Positions 7,401-36,327 of a DNA stretch of 37,318 nucleotides are shown in pieces. The translations under genes were made by a program, and so were the position numbers. The DNA is from a virus: the IMG/VR virus record IMGVR_UViG_3300023178_000121, positions 1-37,318 of that record; one strand, 5' to 3'. A model generated the notes under the pieces. That model was not told the DNA's origin and made no database searches. It saw only the letters and a list, made by a program, of their open reading frames with translations. The number at the start of each line of letters is the position of its first letter. Positions within the stretch are counted from its first letter, which is position 1.

Positions 7401-7973
7401 AATCAAGCAAATAGAGTTGTTCGTACTCAAGCGAATGGCAGAATTTATGGCGGCCAATTCTATGCAAATGATTGGTTTAGAGCAGAAAGCACTAGCGGAT
7501 TATATTTCCAATCATACGGCGGTGGTTGGAATATGACCGACACTTCATGGATTCGTGCATATAACGGTAAAGCTATATATGCTACGAATACTATTGCTAC
7601 ATCTGCTAATATTTGCGCGTACTATTCAGATGAACGTCTGAAGACAATTACAGGACATATAGATAATGCATTAGATAAAGTTTTATCACTTGACGGATTC
7701 TATTATGTAGAAAATGAGTTAGCTAAAGAATTAGGCTATAATAATGATAAGCAACAAGTTGGTGTATCAGCTCAAAAAGTACAAGCAGTATTACCAGAAG
7801 CCGTAGAACTTGCACCAGTTGATTACGAAACAGGCGAACATGATGGAATAATAACGTCAAAATCTGGTGAAAATTATTTAACTGTAGACTATGCTAAAAT
7901 GGTACCTCTATTAATAGAAGCCATTAAAGAGCAACAGAAACAAATTGAAGAATTAAAGGAGAAAATAAAATGA
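4434..7973 (+). CDS. Tail fibre with C-terminal S74 intramolecular chaperone
   Basis: This is an 1179-residue tail fibre or tailspike-type protein. The N-terminal 60 residues are basic and helical. Next come fibre modules with VSDQVLQYNANTG, two AQMNTAIASSNTA units, three perfect 14-residue repeats (FSGAYADLTGKPSL, about 292-333), three PTIPTNNNQLTNGAGYI units and three GLDADxLDG units. The last 115 residues are a peptidase S74 chaperone: SDERLK begins at residue 1065, giving the Ser1065 and Lys1070 pair with the same spacing as the catalytic pair known from endosialidase. In that family the domain trimerises the shaft, cleaves itself off at the serine and leaves. A final QQKQIEELKEK segment is a likely coiled coil. 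The gene overlaps its neighbours at TAATG and ATGA junctions. The S74 call is strong; no depolymerase domain is seen. Confidence 0.92.
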   Translation: MARRTRSFLFDNISKRLVQNTNKTAKEINTRRAANTVANTDILTSKETDTKISTTISNTGINTLSDISIANVVSDQVLQYNANTGNWENETLSLVSSVDGLTDTNLTSLSNGDYLVYSSSGSEWINRSLDLSSYVTDTDIADYSNTAQMNTAIASSNTALKSYVDTNFSNTAQMNTAIASSNTAMKNYVDAEVAGVVNSAPSTLDTLNELAEALGDDPDFATTTATNIGTKLAKSSNLSDLANAATARTNLGLGTAATTASTDYATSAQGTKADTAHGWGNHASAGYGTSNFSGAYADLTGKPSLFSGAYADLTGKPSLFSGAYADLTGKPTIPTNNNQLTNGAGYITTTSANNSLVQLGAIQLYNNEKTTYTAAQGLLIYDQAGDNCLNIYNANLSRWVKIWDDSNDGASSGLDADLLDGQHGSYYSNYNNLSNKPTIPTNNNQLTNGAGYITSTVSGDIDIVGDVKAAGQIRATGWWNTNSSDRSGYAVEIGWSAGEGYLLSYSRTAGAYGAMNYTATSHDFYSGNVRLKAGKYIDLETSAGSVRGYIQATDTNDQHLIIATSGGEDIAFKDGGLSGDSNLIIRGDGNVWVRGSILNGTMAYSQLTGTPTIPTNNNQLTNGAGYITNGANYNVNNAWLRENGDNANVKLYGNSRQMAFRTDGTSEYSTGVGGYPFVWMYGSNASGARKMYLTTGGNLGITGTMTTGGNVNVPSDTGPATSGAWIRNTTAYGYIQIGPANTGHAHIYTDRSNFYFNKTNIQANGNAMWHAGNDGSGSGLDADTLDGLQLNSSTTNNQANAVVRTQANGYIHAGWINSVSGSSGTANRLTRITASYDAYLRYLTVKDFKVQIGESYKNDFSRSVDYTTDSNYWVGSFGKNGYNANQTFHAGSGFFDIWSGSNYPSGTSHIHGFNALHYTVGSISGNTGNAYGWQMAAQYNQDSGPWWRRCSAGSFTSWRKIWHDSNDGSGSGLDADLLDGYHLTTTDRNNQANRVVRTQANGRIYGGQFYANDWFRAESTSGLYFQSYGGGWNMTDTSWIRAYNGKAIYATNTIATSANICAYYSDERLKTITGHIDNALDKVLSLDGFYYVENELAKELGYNNDKQQVGVSAQKVQAVLPEAVELAPVDYETGEHDGIITSKSGENYLTVDYAKMVPLLIEAIKEQQKQIEELKEKIK
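5307..5432 (+). repeat. Three tandem 42-bp repeats inside the S74 fibre gene
   Basis: Three head-to-tail 42-base units start at 5307, 5349 and 5391 and encode FSGAYADLTGKP followed by SL, SL and TI. The copies are almost identical in nucleotides as well as in protein, which suggests recent slippage or unequal recombination. Copy number could change fibre shaft length. Confidence 0.9.
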
Positions 7974-8215
7974 GTTTAACGTGGACATATACTGAACCTG
8001 CTGGCGCGGTTCAAACTGTTACCGTCACATTTAATAATGGTGAGTGGATACATGTACGCGAGGTGAATGCTGTATTTACTGCAAATGGTGAATACGATGC
8101 CGATGCTACTGAAATTCGTGTTGGCGAAGTTGCAATGGGTGTACAAAATAAAATTATCATGGGCACTCTTGTAGCACCAACAAACGATGACGAGCAAGTA
8201 GCGAATACACCATAA
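7970..8215 (+). CDS. Small beta-rich protein of the fibre cassette, unknown function
   Basis: An 81-residue protein starts inside the stop of the S74 fibre gene (ATGA overlap), with AAGGAG about 8 bases upstream. The sequence (MSLTWTYTEPAGAVQTVTV, then NNGEWIHVREVNAVF) is made of short beta strands with an acidic C-terminus ending in DDEQVANTP. It overlaps the next gene by one base. No family is recognised. The position between two fibre-type genes suggests an accessory structural or fibre-assembly role, by inference only. Confidence 0.65.
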   Translation: MSLTWTYTEPAGAVQTVTVTFNNGEWIHVREVNAVFTANGEYDADATEIRVGEVAMGVQNKIIMGTLVAPTNDDEQVANTP

Positions 8216-8892
8216 TGGCACTTCCATCATCTGGACAATTATGTGCATCGGATATTAACGTTGAATTAGGTAAATCAGCAGGCGCACAGTTATGTTTAAA
8301 TGATGCAGATGCTCGAGCATTAGCCCAAAAGTCGTCTGGTCAAATTTGCTATAGTGATTTTCATGGCAAAAGTGCTGTAGCTCAAACGAGAATTACATCT
8401 GTTGGCAGATCAAATGATGGTTATGGTCCATCGCGTTATGGTTATGCGGGCAGTGGCAAGGGTAATTATTACCACTACGAAGGTTCTACAACAGCAACAT
8501 CATTTGGTTCTATCTCTGCTACTACGGGAATAATTACAAGTGGTACTATACATACTATTTACGCAACCAATTATTATAATGGCGATTATCACTTCGAAAT
8601 AGCAACAAGTAGATCGAGTAATGGTGGATGGACAAGCGTGCAAGTATATAGTTCAGCAAATACAAATACTAAGTATACCGTTAACAGAACAAGTGCGGGT
8701 GCTTTTCAACAACTAAATGCTGGCGATAGTAATCCACAAATTAGTGGATCTTATAGATGGGTATTCGCGGGTGTCACTAATGGCGGTTCATATAATCATG
8801 GTTCCGCTAACGCTTCGACTATAGAAGCGATATACAATTTATTTACTGATGCTCATTTAAATGGTCGAACAATGTATTTCGATTTCTCTTAG
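8215..8892 (+). CDS. Putative tail fibre tip / virion structural protein
   Basis: This 225-residue protein opens with an N-terminal domain of the type MALPSSGQLCASDINVELG, followed by a second related unit containing SSGQICYSDFHGK. Paired SSGxIxxSDI motifs of this kind are common at the N-terminus of phage fibre-tip and baseplate-associated proteins. The remaining 150 residues are rich in Gly, Ser, Tyr and Thr and look like a beta-sandwich receptor-binding or jelly-roll domain. There is little Shine-Dalgarno signal, and the start overlaps the previous stop (TAATG), so translation is probably coupled. It is a good candidate for a small adhesin, but the receptor is unknown. Confidence 0.75.
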   Translation: MALPSSGQLCASDINVELGKSAGAQLCLNDADARALAQKSSGQICYSDFHGKSAVAQTRITSVGRSNDGYGPSRYGYAGSGKGNYYHYEGSTTATSFGSISATTGIITSGTIHTIYATNYYNGDYHFEIATSRSSNGGWTSVQVYSSANTNTKYTVNRTSAGAFQQLNAGDSNPQISGSYRWVFAGVTNGGSYNHGSANASTIEAIYNLFTDAHLNGRTMYFDFS

Positions 8893-30181: not shown

Positions 30182-30616
30182 ATGACTCTCGATGAAATCT
30201 TTGATCTGTGGTCCGATGATACACAGATCGATCGTACCGAACTTGGTAATGCTGCTCTTGAATTAGCAAAGCTACACCATAAATACTATCGTATATTCTC
30301 TCAAGAAAGACTTACTCATAAAAAACTCGAAGCTGATATGAAACAATTGAAGCTCGATAAGTATGAGTTCTATGTAGATGGACCAACTGAAGAACACATT
30401 GCAAAAGGTTGGAAACTACCACCAAAGGGTCGTATTCTTAAATCAGATGCTGGTCAATATGTTGACGCAGACTCTGACATTATCGCGCTCAATCTTAAAC
30501 TTGCATATCAACAAGAAAAACTAGAACTACTCGCAGACATTATCAAAACAATTTCTAATCGTGGATTCCACATCAAGTCAGCAATTGAATGGGAGAGATT
30601 CAAGGTTGGCGGATAA
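30182..30616 (+). CDS. uvsY: UvsY recombination mediator
   Basis: This 144-residue protein corresponds to T4 UvsY (137), which loads the UvsX recombinase onto gp32-coated single-stranded DNA. It has a helical N-terminus (LDEIFDLWSDDTQIDRTELG), the LAKLHHKYYRIFSQE helix, a basic stretch around LEADMKQLKLDKYEFY and a C-terminal KTISNRGFHIKSAIEWERF, which aligns with the SRGFAIK motif of T4 UvsY. No Shine-Dalgarno sequence is obvious at the ATG (CGCACATG), which is unusual here. It overlaps uvsW by 11 bases with the start chosen below. The uvsY-uvsW order is that of T4-like phages. Confidence 0.9.
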   Translation: MTLDEIFDLWSDDTQIDRTELGNAALELAKLHHKYYRIFSQERLTHKKLEADMKQLKLDKYEFYVDGPTEEHIAKGWKLPPKGRILKSDAGQYVDADSDIIALNLKLAYQQEKLELLADIIKTISNRGFHIKSAIEWERFKVGG

Positions 30617-32057
30617 GCTATACATCGAGAAGATCAATGAGGTCTATAATAAAGTAAAGACCGATGATCGTGGCATCGCAGAGGAGCTCTCAGCGTACTT
30701 TACATTTAAAGTACCTGGTTACCAGTTCATGCCTGCGTATCGCAATAAATTTTGGGACGGTCAGATCCGTTTATATAATACGTCTACACAGATGCTGTAC
30801 TCTGGCCTCAATAACTATGTGCAGATATTTGCCAAAGAACGTGGTTATAAAATAGAGTACGAGTACGACAATAGTGCAGACAACTATTCGGTAGCAGAAG
30901 CGAAGAAGTTTGTTGAAGAAGAAAAGTTTACGATGGTACCACGCGATTACCAACTCGAAGCATACGTAGACGCAATACGATATAAGCGTGGACTCTTTAT
31001 CTCACCTACAGCTTCTGGTAAGTCCTTCATCATCTATATGATCATGCGTAAGTTACTACGACAGACATTGATTATTGTGCCTACAACTACGCTGGTACAT
31101 CAGATGTATTCTGATTTCGAAGAATATGGGTTCAACAGCGAGAAATACTGTCATAAAATATTTAGTGGTAAAGATAAGAATACTGATAAGCCTGTTGTCA
31201 TCACAACATGGCAGTCCATATATAAATTACGTAAAGATTGGTTCAAGAAGTTTGACGTAGTCATTGGTGACGAAGCACACCTCTTCAAAGCCAAGTCACT
31301 AACATCTATCTTAGAAAAGATGGAAGATACAGAGTATCGCTTTGGTTTTACTGGTACATTAGATGGTACACAGACACATAAACTTGTACTCGAAGGCTTA
31401 TTCGGACCAGCACAAAAAGTTATCTCAACGAAGGAGCTAATGGACAGTGGTACATTGGCAGACTTTAAGATCAAGATACTTGCGCTCAAGTACCATGACG
31501 AGATACGTAAGATAGTATCTAAGATGGATTATCAAGCTGAGATGGATTTTCTCGTATCACATGAAGGTCGCAATAAGTTTATCAAGAACCTCGCACTTTC
31601 GTTAAATGGTAACACTCTTTTACTGTTTCAATATGTTGACAAACATGGTAGAATACTAGAAGAGATGATAAAAGAAGAGGCTGGTGATCGTAAAGTATTC
31701 TTCATACATGGTGGTGTTAAAGGCGAAGAACGTGATGACATTCGCGGTATTGTAGAGAAAGAAAATGATGCAATCATTGTGGCCTCGTACGGTACGTTTT
31801 CAACAGGGGTAAATATCAAGAATCTACATTCAATTATTTTTGCAAGTCCGTCGAAATCAAAGATACGTAATCTACAATCGATAGGCCGAGGACTGAGGAA
31901 GTCGGATACTAAAGACTCAGCGACATTATATGATATCGCTGATGACTTGTCATGGAAGTCAACATCAAACTTTACATTGAAACATTTGATGGAGCGAGTG
32001 AAAATATATGATGAAGAGAAGTTTGACTACAAACTATACAGCATAGGAATAGACTAA
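30606..32057 (+). CDS. uvsW: UvsW helicase (ATP-dependent DNA/RNA helicase)
   Basis: This is a superfamily 2 helicase of 483 residues with the TTG start at 30606, chosen because GGAGAG ends 8 bases upstream and the protein then begins (M)ADKLYIEKINEVY. A GTG at 30561 would add 15 residues but overlap uvsY by 56 bases. Motif I SPTASGKS is at 133-140, DEAH at 222-225, the FTGT motif III near 248-251 and motif VI QSIGRGLRK at 425-433. The N-terminal substrate-binding domain with FKVPGYQFMPAYRNKFWDGQIRLY is as in T4 UvsW. It unwinds R-loops and branched DNA, so it helps switch to recombination-dependent replication. The last base overlaps the next start (TAATG). Confidence 0.93.
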   Translation: MADKLYIEKINEVYNKVKTDDRGIAEELSAYFTFKVPGYQFMPAYRNKFWDGQIRLYNTSTQMLYSGLNNYVQIFAKERGYKIEYEYDNSADNYSVAEAKKFVEEEKFTMVPRDYQLEAYVDAIRYKRGLFISPTASGKSFIIYMIMRKLLRQTLIIVPTTTLVHQMYSDFEEYGFNSEKYCHKIFSGKDKNTDKPVVITTWQSIYKLRKDWFKKFDVVIGDEAHLFKAKSLTSILEKMEDTEYRFGFTGTLDGTQTHKLVLEGLFGPAQKVISTKELMDSGTLADFKIKILALKYHDEIRKIVSKMDYQAEMDFLVSHEGRNKFIKNLALSLNGNTLLLFQYVDKHGRILEEMIKEEAGDRKVFFIHGGVKGEERDDIRGIVEKENDAIIVASYGTFSTGVNIKNLHSIIFASPSKSKIRNLQSIGRGLRKSDTKDSATLYDIADDLSWKSTSNFTLKHLMERVKIYDEEKFDYKLYSIGID

Positions 32058-32440
32058 TGCACGTAGTAGTAAAACTCAAAAGTGGTGAAGAAGTGTTTGG
32101 CAAGATGATGATCAAAAATGAGAACAACATTGAACTCGATGATGCAATGTTGATGCGCTATCATATCAGTGAAGAAACTGATGCACCTGTCATGTACTTT
32201 ACAAAATATTGTATCTTTACTCAGTCATTTGATGTTACAATACCTAATGACTGTATTATGCATGTCTTCAAAGATCCTGTAGAATCTTTGATAGATTTTT
32301 ACGAGAAAGAATTAATTGAATGTAAAATGAGTTACAAAAGAAATCCTGAACCTGAACCACAGACAGGTAGAAAAAATAGAAGAAATGAAACTCTTATTGC
32401 AATGATGGAAAAATTAAAAGGTGATCATGAGGTACACTGA
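32057..32440 (+). CDS. Small Sm-like (LSm) domain candidate
   Basis: This 127-residue protein starts with MHVVVKLKSGEEVFGKMMIKNENNIELDDAM. That is the strand-rich layout of an Sm-like fold: a short strand, LKSGEEVFGKM, then a strand with NIELDDAM. The middle VMYFTKYCIFTQSFDVTIPND resembles the second Sm motif region (ILxRYxIFTQS). The C-terminal 40 residues are basic (KNRRNETLIAMMEKLKG) and may bind nucleic acid. It lies between UvsW and the late sigma factor and overlaps both by one base, so it is tightly linked to them. The fold is a suggestion from pattern; RNA binding is untested. Confidence 0.6.
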   Translation: MHVVVKLKSGEEVFGKMMIKNENNIELDDAMLMRYHISEETDAPVMYFTKYCIFTQSFDVTIPNDCIMHVFKDPVESLIDFYEKELIECKMSYKRNPEPEPQTGRKNRRNETLIAMMEKLKGDHEVH

Positions 32441-32958
32441 TGGCAAACTATATCAACAACAAAGAGTTCTATGCTCTATTACAACAATTCAAAGCTGACT
32501 GCGCAGAGGCAGAAAAGAATAACAAACCAGCACCACGAGTACCAGAGGATATCGGCAAATGTTTTATGATGATTGCCACCAAGCTAGCTACGAAAGCTAA
32601 CTTCTCTGGATACACATACAAAGACGAGATGATCTGTGATGCACTCGAAAATTGTGTGGTAGCTGTACATAGCTTTAATCCAGAAAAATCCAAGAATCCA
32701 TTTGCATACTTTACACAAATTATTTGGTATGCATTCCTACGACGTATCGAAAAAGAGAAGAAGCAGACATACGTCAAATACAAATCACTAGAACAATTAG
32801 TAGTCGATGCAGAACTCCTCGATGATGAAGGCTCCGATGCATATAAGAACTATGACATTGCTAACGAGAAGATGAAACCTATCATCGATAAATTTGAGAA
32901 CAAACAGAAAAAGAAAAAACCTGCCGAACCAAAAGGCTTGGAGAAATTTACTGAATGA
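32440..32958 (+). CDS. 55: Late transcription sigma factor gp55
   Basis: This 172-residue protein corresponds to T4 gp55 (185), the sigma-like factor for late promoters. The core segment VAVHSFNPEKSKNPFAYFTQIIWYAFLRRIEKEKKQ is the region-2-like core/promoter binding helix set; NPFAYFTQI is the recognisable family stretch. N-terminal helices and a C-terminal Lys-rich tail (KQKKKKPAEPKGLEKF) follow; in T4 the C-terminus contacts the sliding clamp gp45. It would read the NATAAATA sites in this window. It is coupled to the next gene by an ATGA overlap. Confidence 0.92.
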   Translation: MANYINNKEFYALLQQFKADCAEAEKNNKPAPRVPEDIGKCFMMIATKLATKANFSGYTYKDEMICDALENCVVAVHSFNPEKSKNPFAYFTQIIWYAFLRRIEKEKKQTYVKYKSLEQLVVDAELLDDEGSDAYKNYDIANEKMKPIIDKFENKQKKKKPAEPKGLEKFTE

Positions 32959-34004
32959 AAATTGCATTGATTACCGATCAACACTTCGGAGTACGTAATG
33001 ACAGCATCCAATTCCACGAATACTACAGAAAATTCTATGAAGAATTCTTCTTTCCCACTCTTAGAGAAATGGGCGTCAGAGATATCGTCGAGCTCGGGGA
33101 TATTTTCGACAGGCGCAAGTATGTTAATTTTGACACCCTTAGTCGCTGCCGCGATTACTTTTTTGATCCTATCGCACGCGACGGGTTGAGTCTACATTGT
33201 ATCGTAGGTAATCATGATATCTATTTTAAGAATACCAATCGAGTCAATGCACCTGATCTCTTGCTTGGTGAGTTTGATATGCATGTGTATTCTGAACCGA
33301 CTGAAGTAAATTTTTATGACACATCTATCTTGATGATGCCATGGATCAATAGTCAGAATTATGATGTTGCGATGTATGCTATCGATCAATCAAAGTCTGA
33401 CATCTGTCTTGGTCATCTCGAGTTCCAAGGCTTCGAAATGTATCGTGGTGCAGTGATCGATCACGGACTATCGCATAAAGCATTTCAGAAGTTCGACATG
33501 GTATGTTCAGGTCACTTCCATCATAAGTCTACGAAAGACAATATCAATTATCTTGGCGCTCCATATGAGATGACATGGTCAGACTATGACGATCCACGTG
33601 GATTCCATATACTCGACACCGAAACAAAAGAGTTGACTTATTTTCAAAATCCGTTTATTATGTTTCATAAGGTTTTCTATGACGATAGTCAAGGTGAAGA
33701 AGTATTGAAGCAAGACTTTGAGAAGTTGAAAGATTCACATGTGAAAGTGGTAGTCAAGAACAAAGACAACCCATACTTGTTCGATCTGTACATTGATAAG
33801 TTGAATGCTGCCAATCCTGCACATATGCAGGTGGTCGAAGATAACTTTAATCTTGATCTCGAAGATGATGAGAATATTGTAGATGAGGCAGAAGATACCA
33901 TTACTATCATTCGGAAATACATAGATAATTTACAATTGAGTGATAACAAACCAATGAATGATTTATTCTATGATTTATATCACGAGGCGCTAAGTACTGA
34001 ATGA
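32955..34004 (+). CDS. 47: Recombination endonuclease subunit gp47 (Mre11-like)
   Basis: This 349-residue protein is the calcineurin-type nuclease subunit of the gp46-gp47 complex that resects DNA ends. Metal-binding motifs are visible: ITDQHFG (Asp8, His10), LGDIFDRR (Asp49), GNHD (Asn86, His87, Asp88), LGHLEF (His154) and SGHFHHKS (His187, His189). The C-terminal 130 residues form the accessory domain, ending in acidic helices. T4 gp47 has 339 residues. It overlaps gp55 and the following small gene by four bases each. Identity is clear. Confidence 0.95.
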   Translation: MKIALITDQHFGVRNDSIQFHEYYRKFYEEFFFPTLREMGVRDIVELGDIFDRRKYVNFDTLSRCRDYFFDPIARDGLSLHCIVGNHDIYFKNTNRVNAPDLLLGEFDMHVYSEPTEVNFYDTSILMMPWINSQNYDVAMYAIDQSKSDICLGHLEFQGFEMYRGAVIDHGLSHKAFQKFDMVCSGHFHHKSTKDNINYLGAPYEMTWSDYDDPRGFHILDTETKELTYFQNPFIMFHKVFYDDSQGEEVLKQDFEKLKDSHVKVVVKNKDNPYLFDLYIDKLNAANPAHMQVVEDNFNLDLEDDENIVDEAEDTITIIRKYIDNLQLSDNKPMNDLFYDLYHEALSTE

Positions 34005-34402
34005 GAGAATGTGGAGACTGCACAGAATGTTGTCGCGGCCGTTTAATATTTGAAGACGAAACAAAAACTGGTGAAAAAATTATTGTCAAAGATTCTATAC
34101 CATGTTATAAATTATCTGATAAAGGTTGCACTATACATGAAGACAGACCAGATGTTTGTAGAAACTGGCAATGTACATGGACTCTAGACGAAGGTTTACC
34201 AAATTGGTTACAACCATCAAAATGTGGATTTATGATTTGGCCACCAGATAAGGTATGCCCAGATTATTGTATTGTTCCAAGTGACCATGTACAAGTCGAC
34301 GTAAAAGCGTTAATATGGACCCTATGGTGGGCAAATGAAACAGGCAAAAACATCAAAGTCATCAGTACGCGTTATGGTGATTTAAGTTTTAAGAATTCTT
34401 AA
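34001..34402 (+). CDS. YkgJ-type CxxCxxCC metal/iron-sulfur cluster protein
   Basis: This 133-residue protein begins MRECGDCTECCRGRL with Cys4, Cys7, Cys10 and Cys11, the CxxCxxCC signature of the YkgJ/UPF0153 zinc- or iron-sulfur-cluster family. Further cysteines follow at CTIHEDRPDVCRNWQCTW, at CGF and at VCPDYCIV. That family layout (a second cluster CxxHxxRPxxCRxxxC) is also conserved. The function of the family is poorly known. It is inserted between gp47 and gp46, which are usually near neighbours, and looks more AT-rich than both. Its start overlaps the gp47 stop (ATGA), so it is co-translated. No membrane segment is seen. Confidence 0.85.
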   Translation: MRECGDCTECCRGRLIFEDETKTGEKIIVKDSIPCYKLSDKGCTIHEDRPDVCRNWQCTWTLDEGLPNWLQPSKCGFMIWPPDKVCPDYCIVPSDHVQVDVKALIWTLWWANETGKNIKVISTRYGDLSFKNS

Positions 34403-34405
34403 TAT

Positions 34406-36106
34406 ATGTTGTATTTTAAAGTTGTACGTTGGCAAAATTTCTTGTCGACAGGTAATCAGTGGACTGAGATCCATCTGAACAGAGCACAATCTACCCTTAT
34501 CGTAGGCGAGAACGGAGCTGGTAAATCTACCATGCTCGATGCTATCTCGTTTGGTCTATACGGTAAGCCATATCGTAACATCAATAAGCCACAGCTAGTC
34601 AACAGCATCACGTCTAAGCGTTGTGTTGTTGAGATAGAATTCTCTTCGAAAGGCAAAGAGTATCTGATTCGTCGCGGCATCAAGCCAAATGTATTCGAGA
34701 TCTTCTGTGATGGTAAGTTGGTCGATCAGCATGCATCTGTACGAGAATATCAAGAATACCTCGAGAAGAACGTACTCAAACTCAATCACAAATCATTCAC
34801 ACAGATCGTAGTCATTGGTTCTGCTAACTTCATTCCATTTATGCAGATGAAAGTGTGGGAACGACGTGACGTTATCGAAGATCTACTCGACATTGAAATC
34901 TTTACGAAGATGAATAACCTACTCAAAGAGAAGATCAACAAGAATAGAGATGATGTGATCGAAGCCAAATATCAGATCGACATGCTCGAGCAGCGTATCT
35001 CATTAACAAAGAAACATCTCAACGAGATCATGTCAATGCAGAAGTCAGATCGCGATGCTAAGTTAAAGAAGGTAGAAGAGTTAGAGACAAAATTAAATGA
35101 TTTGAGATTACAATACGAAGGTAAGGCAAATCACGTCAAACATTTGCACGATAGTATCAAAGATAGAGATACCATCAAAGGTAAGCAACGTAAGCTGAAC
35201 GAGCTAAAGATGCAACTCTCTTCGAAGGTACAGAATATCCAATCACAAATCGAGTTCTTTAAAGATCATGACGATTGTCCTACATGTCATCAGTCTATTG
35301 ACGAAGAGTTTAAAGAAGATCATATCTGTGAACAGCAAGAGAAACAACTTGAGATCAAAGATGGTATCGATAAGATGACCGACCATTTCAATGAGGTCGA
35401 GCTCAGGCTGAACGAGATCTCAGCTGTACAAGATACTATCAACGATATCAATCAAATCATGATGAATCTCAACAGTGAGATGACATCTACACAAAATGGT
35501 ATCAAAGAACTTAATCAATCTCTCGAAGAAGTACCACAAGTACAAGAGACAGACGACCTCGACGAACTTAATGCTACACTTGGTAAGAACAAAGAAAAGC
35601 ATGAAATACTATTACGAGAGAAAGAGAGATACGAGATTGCATCGTCGTTACTCAAAGATGGTGGTATCAAATCAAAAATCATCAAGCAGTATGTACCTAT
35701 CATCAACAAACTAATGAATAAGTATCTCGCTGCGATGGAGTTCTTCGTACAATTCGAGTTAGATGAACAATTTAATGAAAAGATCAAGTCGAGGTTCAGA
35801 GATGAATTTACTTACGACTCGTTCTCCGAAGGTGAAAAGATGCGTATTGATCTTTCATTGCTTTTCACATGGCGCGCTGTCGCCAAGCTAAGAAACTCTG
35901 TAACGACTAACCTTTTGATCATGGATGAAGTATTTGACTCCTCACTCGATACAACAGGTACCGATGAGTTCTTGAAATTAATTACACAATTGACACAAGA
36001 CACGAACGTCTTTGTCATCTCACACAAAGGTGACCAACTCTTCGATAAGTTCCACAGTAACATTCGATTCGAGAAGGTCAAAAATTTCTCGCAGATCGCT
36101 GCGTAG
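34406..36106 (+). CDS. 46: Recombination endonuclease subunit gp46 (Rad50-like)
   Basis: This 566-residue ABC-type ATPase partners gp47. Walker A GENGAGKST is at residues 34-42. A long coiled coil runs from about 170 to 440 and is bent at CPTC (Cys291, Cys294), the zinc-hook motif. The signature FSEGEKMRIDL begins at 473 and Walker B LLIMDE is at 503-508 (Asp507, Glu508). T4 gp46 has 560 residues. The complex resects double-strand breaks to feed UvsX/UvsY recombination-dependent replication. The gene is separated from the small YkgJ-type gene by three bases and followed by AGGAGG for the next gene. Identity is certain. Confidence 0.96.
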   Translation: MLYFKVVRWQNFLSTGNQWTEIHLNRAQSTLIVGENGAGKSTMLDAISFGLYGKPYRNINKPQLVNSITSKRCVVEIEFSSKGKEYLIRRGIKPNVFEIFCDGKLVDQHASVREYQEYLEKNVLKLNHKSFTQIVVIGSANFIPFMQMKVWERRDVIEDLLDIEIFTKMNNLLKEKINKNRDDVIEAKYQIDMLEQRISLTKKHLNEIMSMQKSDRDAKLKKVEELETKLNDLRLQYEGKANHVKHLHDSIKDRDTIKGKQRKLNELKMQLSSKVQNIQSQIEFFKDHDDCPTCHQSIDEEFKEDHICEQQEKQLEIKDGIDKMTDHFNEVELRLNEISAVQDTINDINQIMMNLNSEMTSTQNGIKELNQSLEEVPQVQETDDLDELNATLGKNKEKHEILLREKERYEIASSLLKDGGIKSKIIKQYVPIINKLMNKYLAAMEFFVQFELDEQFNEKIKSRFRDEFTYDSFSEGEKMRIDLSLLFTWRAVAKLRNSVTTNLLIMDEVFDSSLDTTGTDEFLKLITQLTQDTNVFVISHKGDQLFDKFHSNIRFEKVKNFSQIAA

Positions 36107-36114
36107 GAGGAAAC

Positions 36115-36327
36115 ATGGCATATAAAGTTTTAGTACAATTAACCGAAGATGGAGATTGGGATCCAGTACTCGATATGAAGCTCAGTCGTACTCGTTCTGT
36201 ACCTCGTTTGTTTTTAGATGAAGAGGCAGCACAGTATTATATTGATCAACAACCAAAATCTGAGAGTGTAAATTATTTACGTAAGTTTAAAATTGAAGAA
36301 GCTCCTGAGTTAGAAGATGACAGATAA
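36115..36327 (+). CDS. Small protein of unknown function
   Basis: This 70-residue protein has a near-perfect ribosome site (AGGAGG) 5-10 bases before its ATG. It begins MAYKVLVQLTEDGDWDPVLD, continues with SVPRLFLDEEAAQYYIDQQP and ends in an acidic tail. The mix of beta strand, Trp-Asp-Pro motif and one helix gives a small domain that I do not recognise. It overlaps the deformylase gene by 11 bases. Strong translation signals suggest a real gene. No function is assigned. Confidence 0.72.
   Translation: MAYKVLVQLTEDGDWDPVLDMKLSRTRSVPRLFLDEEAAQYYIDQQPKSESVNYLRKFKIEEAPELEDDR

Follow-up and report, generated by a model that had tools for sequence, protein, structure and literature searches.

A small cysteine-rich gene wedged between two DNA-repair genes, gp47 and gp46, of a marine T4-like virus looks to us most like optional cargo. 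We lean towards an accessory metalloprotein that likely works alone, on a target of the host or the phage, and not as a component of the gp46-gp47 nuclease. Such a protein would bind an Fe-S cluster or Zn, and its gene would probably come and go, through recombination in the flanking core genes, at operon junctions that tolerate insertions.

The gene lies at positions 34001 to 34402 on the plus strand of the window, by which we mean the whole 37,318-nucleotide stretch of viral DNA that was analyzed. Its reading frame, which holds a single start codon, encodes a CxxCxxCC protein of 133 amino acids (YkgJ-type, PHROG 9155), as identified from the open reading frame, profile matches and an alignment. 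Immediately upstream is gp47, the Mre11/SbcD-like nuclease subunit (32955 to 34004, plus strand; PHROG 100, E 7.4e-108), whose stop codon at 34002-34004 shares bases with the ATG of the cysteine gene in an ATGA overlap read directly from the sequence (34001-34004, plus strand). Downstream, 3 nt past the TAA, begins gp46, the Rad50/SbcC-like ATPase with its zinc hook CPTC at residue 291 (34406 to 36106, plus strand; PHROG 77, E 1.7e-171). These data bear out a sequence-only reading of this DNA, which had described a YkgJ-type cysteine-cluster gene, placed between gp47 and gp46 and translationally coupled to the former. In relatives without the cysteine gene, an ATGA-type overlap also joins gp47 to gp46 directly. 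Promoter- and terminator-like matches at the site did not rise above the level found in shuffled sequence. Further downstream, a 70-amino-acid reading frame (36115-36327) separates gp46 from a peptide deformylase-like gene, the latter named by eye; it has no PHROG match and matches Pfam at chance level only.

The cysteine reading frame is a real gene, judging from its invariant cysteines and from an excess of silent changes. Ten close pairs of family members differ at 157 silent and 120 residue-changing codons, where evolution without selection would be expected to give about three times more residue changes; in three of these pairs (L115/L136, L125/L130 and L101/L122) residue changes outnumber silent ones. 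The gene has a GC content of 36.6% and a third-position GC content (GC3) of 24.6%, below the GC3 of gp47 (40.9%) and gp46 (46.6%). The AT-rich look from which a separate origin had been suggested is thus visible beside its neighbors, but the value lies only about one standard deviation under the mean of the 25 other window genes (32.6 ± 7.5%), several of which are equally low. The gene was probably acquired separately; base composition, which is within the window's range, is weak evidence of this, and we reject it as proof of foreign origin.

By its cysteine pattern and profile matches, the protein is a divergent relative of the YkgJ/PF03692 group, in a widespread and unstudied phage family, PHROG 9155. 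The match to that profile (E 2.7e-17; function unknown there) aligns residues 2-79 with profile positions 14-90 of 181 and leaves the C-terminal part uncovered. Against PF03692 (CxxCxxCC) the protein scores 19 bits (18.4 in a second scan), under the Pfam gathering cut-off of 23, and we therefore call it a relative rather than a member; 10 of 40 phage relatives match PF03692 at E <= 0.01, and a scan of the NCBIfam profiles returned no match for the window's protein. The PF03692 signature seen in the aligned E. coli proteins, CxxCxxCC followed by C-x-I-x-x-x-R-P-x-x-C, is present. Across an alignment of 40 phage proteins seven cysteines are invariant (C4, C7, C10, C11, C43, C53 and C58) and an eighth, C35, is nearly so (at least 90%). 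The first four form a C4-x2-C7-x2-C10-C11 motif (34010-34033, plus strand; 40/40 proteins), and the others a second group with the signature GCTIhxxRPxxC (34103-34174, plus strand). They are followed by a C-terminal alpha/beta lobe (34175-34399, plus strand), delineated from the alignment and an AF2 model, whose P-x-W-x-x-P motif is common to the aligned phage family. E. coli YkgJ and YeiW resemble the protein in CxxCxxCC and in C...C-x-I-x-x-x-R-x-x-x-C (hhalign probability 93.6 for YkgJ, from one pair, and 88.5 for YeiW), but they have no eighth cysteine at the corresponding position and no C-terminal lobe.

The AF2 model has a pLDDT of 80 and a pTM of 0.70, with block means of pLDDT 83-96 over residues 51-120. 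Searching the PDB with it gave weak matches (best Foldseek E 0.52, VIA Z 3.4) and none at E <= 0.001, and a sequence search of solved structures found no credible match; among viral models, five matches reached E <= 0.001, all of them family-like phage proteins. A tblastn search found homologues in 35 annotated phage records, every one from a Synechococcus phage or a cyanophage, and a profile scan of IMG/VR gave at least 194 relatives, of which the best 80 were used. The family extends into proteobacteria, with 126 relatives in genome contigs (the best 80 were used). Ten of these were scanned and yielded two PF03692 matches, both below the cut-off, so that the whole branch appears to sit at the edge of PF03692. 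In a Herminiimonas relative (L206) a SEC-C motif (PF02810), usually a Zn site, precedes the CxxCxxCC domain. Two others (L205 and L209) show the same layout by eye, and all three are of Oxalobacteraceae type. Published work describes a Vibrio phage reading frame named for a CxxCxxCC/YkgJ-type domain (PMC10671443) and an E. coli ykgJ deletion that causes more filamentation in biofilms, with function unknown (PMC8743551); titles and abstract openings yielded no published function for a phage member.

FliB, the flagellin lysine methylase, has eight conserved cysteines and is reported to use a similar N-terminal motif to hold the [4Fe-4S] cluster that its SAM-dependent methylation of flagellin requires (PMC8598068). 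Eight are likewise conserved in the phage protein, and some family members adjoin methyltransferase or S-adenosylmethionine decarboxylase genes. By analogy, the protein might be a FliB-like [4Fe-4S]/SAM-dependent modifying enzyme, for instance a lysine methylase, with a host or phage target. However, it is just 133 amino acids long and different overall from FliB, its cysteines are spaced CX2CX2CC and not CX4CX3CC as in FliB, and the weak PDB matches include no SAM-binding fold. We judge such an activity unlikely.

The junction between gp47 and gp46 was then compared across gp47 relatives pooled from three scans (80 of 314 kept in the first, 80 of 86 in the second and, in the third, 79 loci drawn from the 80 best of 587). 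Copies sharing the final 400 nt of gp47 counted once, and cut genes were set aside. This gave 141 distinct junctions, 131 with both genes and 10 without gp46 in reach. The 131 divide into 55 tight junctions (<= 30 nt) and 76 with an insert, one of which (L054) is a miscall. A YkgJ-type gene is found at 5 of the 141: in the window and in L027, L028, L042 and L044, L042 being one of the 10 junctions without gp46. The remaining inserts whose frame could be read contribute 71 reading frames in 24 sequence groups, numbers that include the L054 miscall and some poorly called frames, and hold about 20 unrelated small cargo types. Among individual junctions, L324 (4506-4739) and L325 have a frame that looks glutaredoxin-like by eye, and L069 (6056-6946) and L073 have gp47 and gp46 roughly 1 kb apart, with a frame of about 300 amino acids and a second small one in between, not YkgJ-type. 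In L044 (position 6516), the conserved N-terminus of gp46 after the YkgJ-type gene reads IINFQKVRW, with no M. Other small genes occur at this junction in T4-like phages, for example T4-GC 142 in P-SSM4, which is also optional between core genes and unrelated in sequence; T4 has its own small genes, 46.1 and 46.2, at the same junction. Small-gene hot spots in T4-like cyanophages, including one between gp46 and gp25, are mentioned in an earlier study (PMC3037559). A non-exhaustive literature search did not turn up a 47/46 slot with varied cargo and an exact plug-in of the cysteine gene.

None of the 11 relatives closest to the window whose junction could be read (L015-L025; gp47 91-98% identical) has the cysteine gene; a near-identical contig that carries it (L002, the same as L014) was left out of this set. 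Six of the 11 have a 4-nt overlap of gp47 with gp46 and four a 1-nt overlap; in the last (L016) a 54-nt spacer separates the two genes. That spacer (2984-3037 of L016) contains an imperfect inverted repeat, seen by eye, and a T run, in a group whose other junctions are closed. A gp47 tree of 77 rows, from which L026 and L047 (cut), L054 and the window's copy L014 were left out, places the carriers within a group of 17 rows, where they make up 5/5 of one clade (three of them identical) and 1/12 of the window's clade. The tree needs at least two changes of state of the cysteine gene, a pattern that would suit either an ancestral gain with losses or a regain by recombination. The conserved adjacency in relatives that an obligate part of SbcCD or gp46-gp47 should show is not seen at this junction (5/141 and 0/11).

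Relatives of the protein are encoded at many other places. The PHROG 9155 members of the cyanophages S-CAM1, S-CAM3, Syn30, S-IOM18 and S-ShM2 share the cysteine pattern and C-terminal lobe, but their genes are not at 47/46. In S-CAM1 and S-CAM3 the homologue comes after gp45; in S-ShM2 it follows a reading frame annotated as ferrochelatase, between gp45 and gp44; in Syn30 it lies between a DNA methyltransferase and a helicase, an arrangement repeated in S-IOM18 and S-RS29 with one extra reading frame after the methyltransferase. The gp45-gp44 gap holds a different gene in P-SSM4 and S-WAM1 and none in S-SZBM1. For a survey of neighbors, 81 sequences were reduced to 48 representatives by merging those above 90% similarity, and 42 of the 43 upstream neighbors found and 46 of the 47 downstream were scanned. 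The counts (clamp 8, SbcD 3, clamp loader 9, SbcC 3 and many singletons) are raw, and we claim no enrichment because the survey has no matched control for small phage genes beside DNA-metabolism genes. Twenty upstream neighbors scanned singly include methyltransferase, aldolase-like, HNH, S-adenosylmethionine decarboxylase, endonuclease V, glycosyltransferase, 2OG-Fe(II) oxygenase, 'regulator of chromosome condensation' type, exonuclease, peroxiredoxin and DNA methyltransferase genes, as well as unknowns.

Nor does coupling single out a partner. The cysteine gene overlaps the upstream reading frame in 34 of 43 representatives, a count in which the choice of start favors overlap and which omits the 5 of 48 without an upstream frame by the rule used, against 34 of 51 annotated control gene pairs. 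Translational coupling is therefore ordinary in such genomes, and we reject it as a sign of special partnership.

A second site suggests how the gene moves. In a tree of 52 cysteine proteins, four copies from 47/46 junctions and one PhoH-linked copy (L099, from the L003 phage) form one clade (100/94); the free tree nests the PhoH-linked copy among the other four, and a clade of the four alone is not rejected (p-AU 0.218). In the L003 phage the cysteine gene begins in the ATGA stop of PhoH and shares bases with a phrog_298 exonuclease gene. In L395, the nearest relative of L003 (PhoH 83%), the cysteine gene is missing and an ATGA links PhoH straight to the exonuclease. Since the gene stands in L003 where the L395 junction is closed, the second site shows an exact ATGA plug-in as well. 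The other eight relatives of L003 showed no cysteine gene by tblastn, the junctions themselves being inspected in 7 of the 9 relatives overall. The same L003 contig carries a 401-amino-acid reading frame of the isocitrate lyase family (7656-8861; PF00463, E 7.1e-102). In the window, a 4.7-kb tract around the gene (30512-35232, plus strand) is 99.96% identical, with 2 differences, to IMG/VR contig 3300022939_000223, while its flanks are 91.6% and 86.1% identical. Unless one of the assemblies is mosaic, the tract fits a recent recombination that would have moved the cysteine gene together with its core-gene flanks.

This clade also holds the points that speak against a reading as cargo. With the 47/46 copies and the PhoH-linked copy in one clade, and with the gene in all 5 loci of one gp47 clade (three of them identical), the site is not random within the subclade. 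At each of the subclade's two sites the next gene downstream encodes a DNA nuclease. With two sites the adjacency may be chance, as such genes are common in these regions; still, that a nuclease gene follows at both leaves, for this one subclade, weak residual support for a link to repair. The position of the gene had led the sequence-only reading to propose a role in the processing of DNA ends, for which a survey of the same place in relatives was the suggested check. The survey went largely against this proposal, in that the family stands beside many unrelated genes and occupies 5 of 141 junctions, although one subclade does keep the site (4 of 5 rows at 47/46) and its fifth row is still just upstream of another nuclease gene. 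We thus consider quite improbable a dedicated partner of the gp46-gp47 nuclease, acting as redox sensor, assembly factor or regulator. Such a partner would suit a gene coupled between the two subunit genes, the subclade's 4 of 5 members at 47/46 with the fifth upstream of the phrog_298 exonuclease, and the glutaredoxin-like frame, named by eye, in the same junction of two relatives; it agrees poorly with the gene's absence from every one of the 11 close relatives whose junction could be read, with the unrelated genes that adjoin the protein's relatives, and with overlaps being the rule in control pairs.

A bolder version would confine the repair link to the subclade, as a travelling ATGA plug-in encoding an Fe-S or Zn protein that assists, shields or switches the nucleases with which phages process DNA ends, perhaps to counter host defence or oxidative damage. 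We regard this as a long shot. If true, the gene would always land directly upstream of SbcC/gp46 or of an exonuclease of the phrog_298 type. We also judge it very unlikely that the gene is selfish and mobile, with ATGA junctions as its target: its exact placement in overlap junctions at two sites would fit, but the protein has no endonuclease or recombinase match in Pfam, PHROG or NCBIfam, the surroundings of the site yielded no tandem repeat, and phage-to-phage recombination in the flanking genes is explanation enough. We reject as scarcely credible a metallochaperone loading Zn into the gp46 hook, despite a position directly upstream of a gene whose CPTC hook, like Rad50-type hooks, needs a metal, because the CxxC hook is there with or without the cysteine gene, in 59 of 59 full-length gp46 examined, of which 6 loci carry it (near-copies included: the window and L014; L027, L028 and L083).

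As accessory cargo, the protein would hold metal through the eight conserved cysteines of its N-terminal half. They seem somewhat likelier to bind a [4Fe-4S]-type cluster, with Zn perhaps at the second group, than Zn alone; by analogy, the SEC-C motif of the Oxalobacteraceae relatives would favor Zn. The C-terminal lobe may contact the target. The stand-alone gene plugs into the ATGA overlap of two co-translated core genes, and would be expressed with the operon around it while leaving that operon unbroken. It may move between phages as the flanking core genes recombine, and occasionally reach a new junction, a mechanism suggested by the presence/absence pattern and the second site.

In dense phage genomes the position of a gene can mislead: a gene so closely coupled to two repair genes looks like a functional partner, yet relatives reveal what may be an interchangeable cargo slot. 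The analysis further defines a phage family of cysteine-cluster proteins that is widespread and functionally blank, and whose gene is also present in cultured Synechococcus phages.
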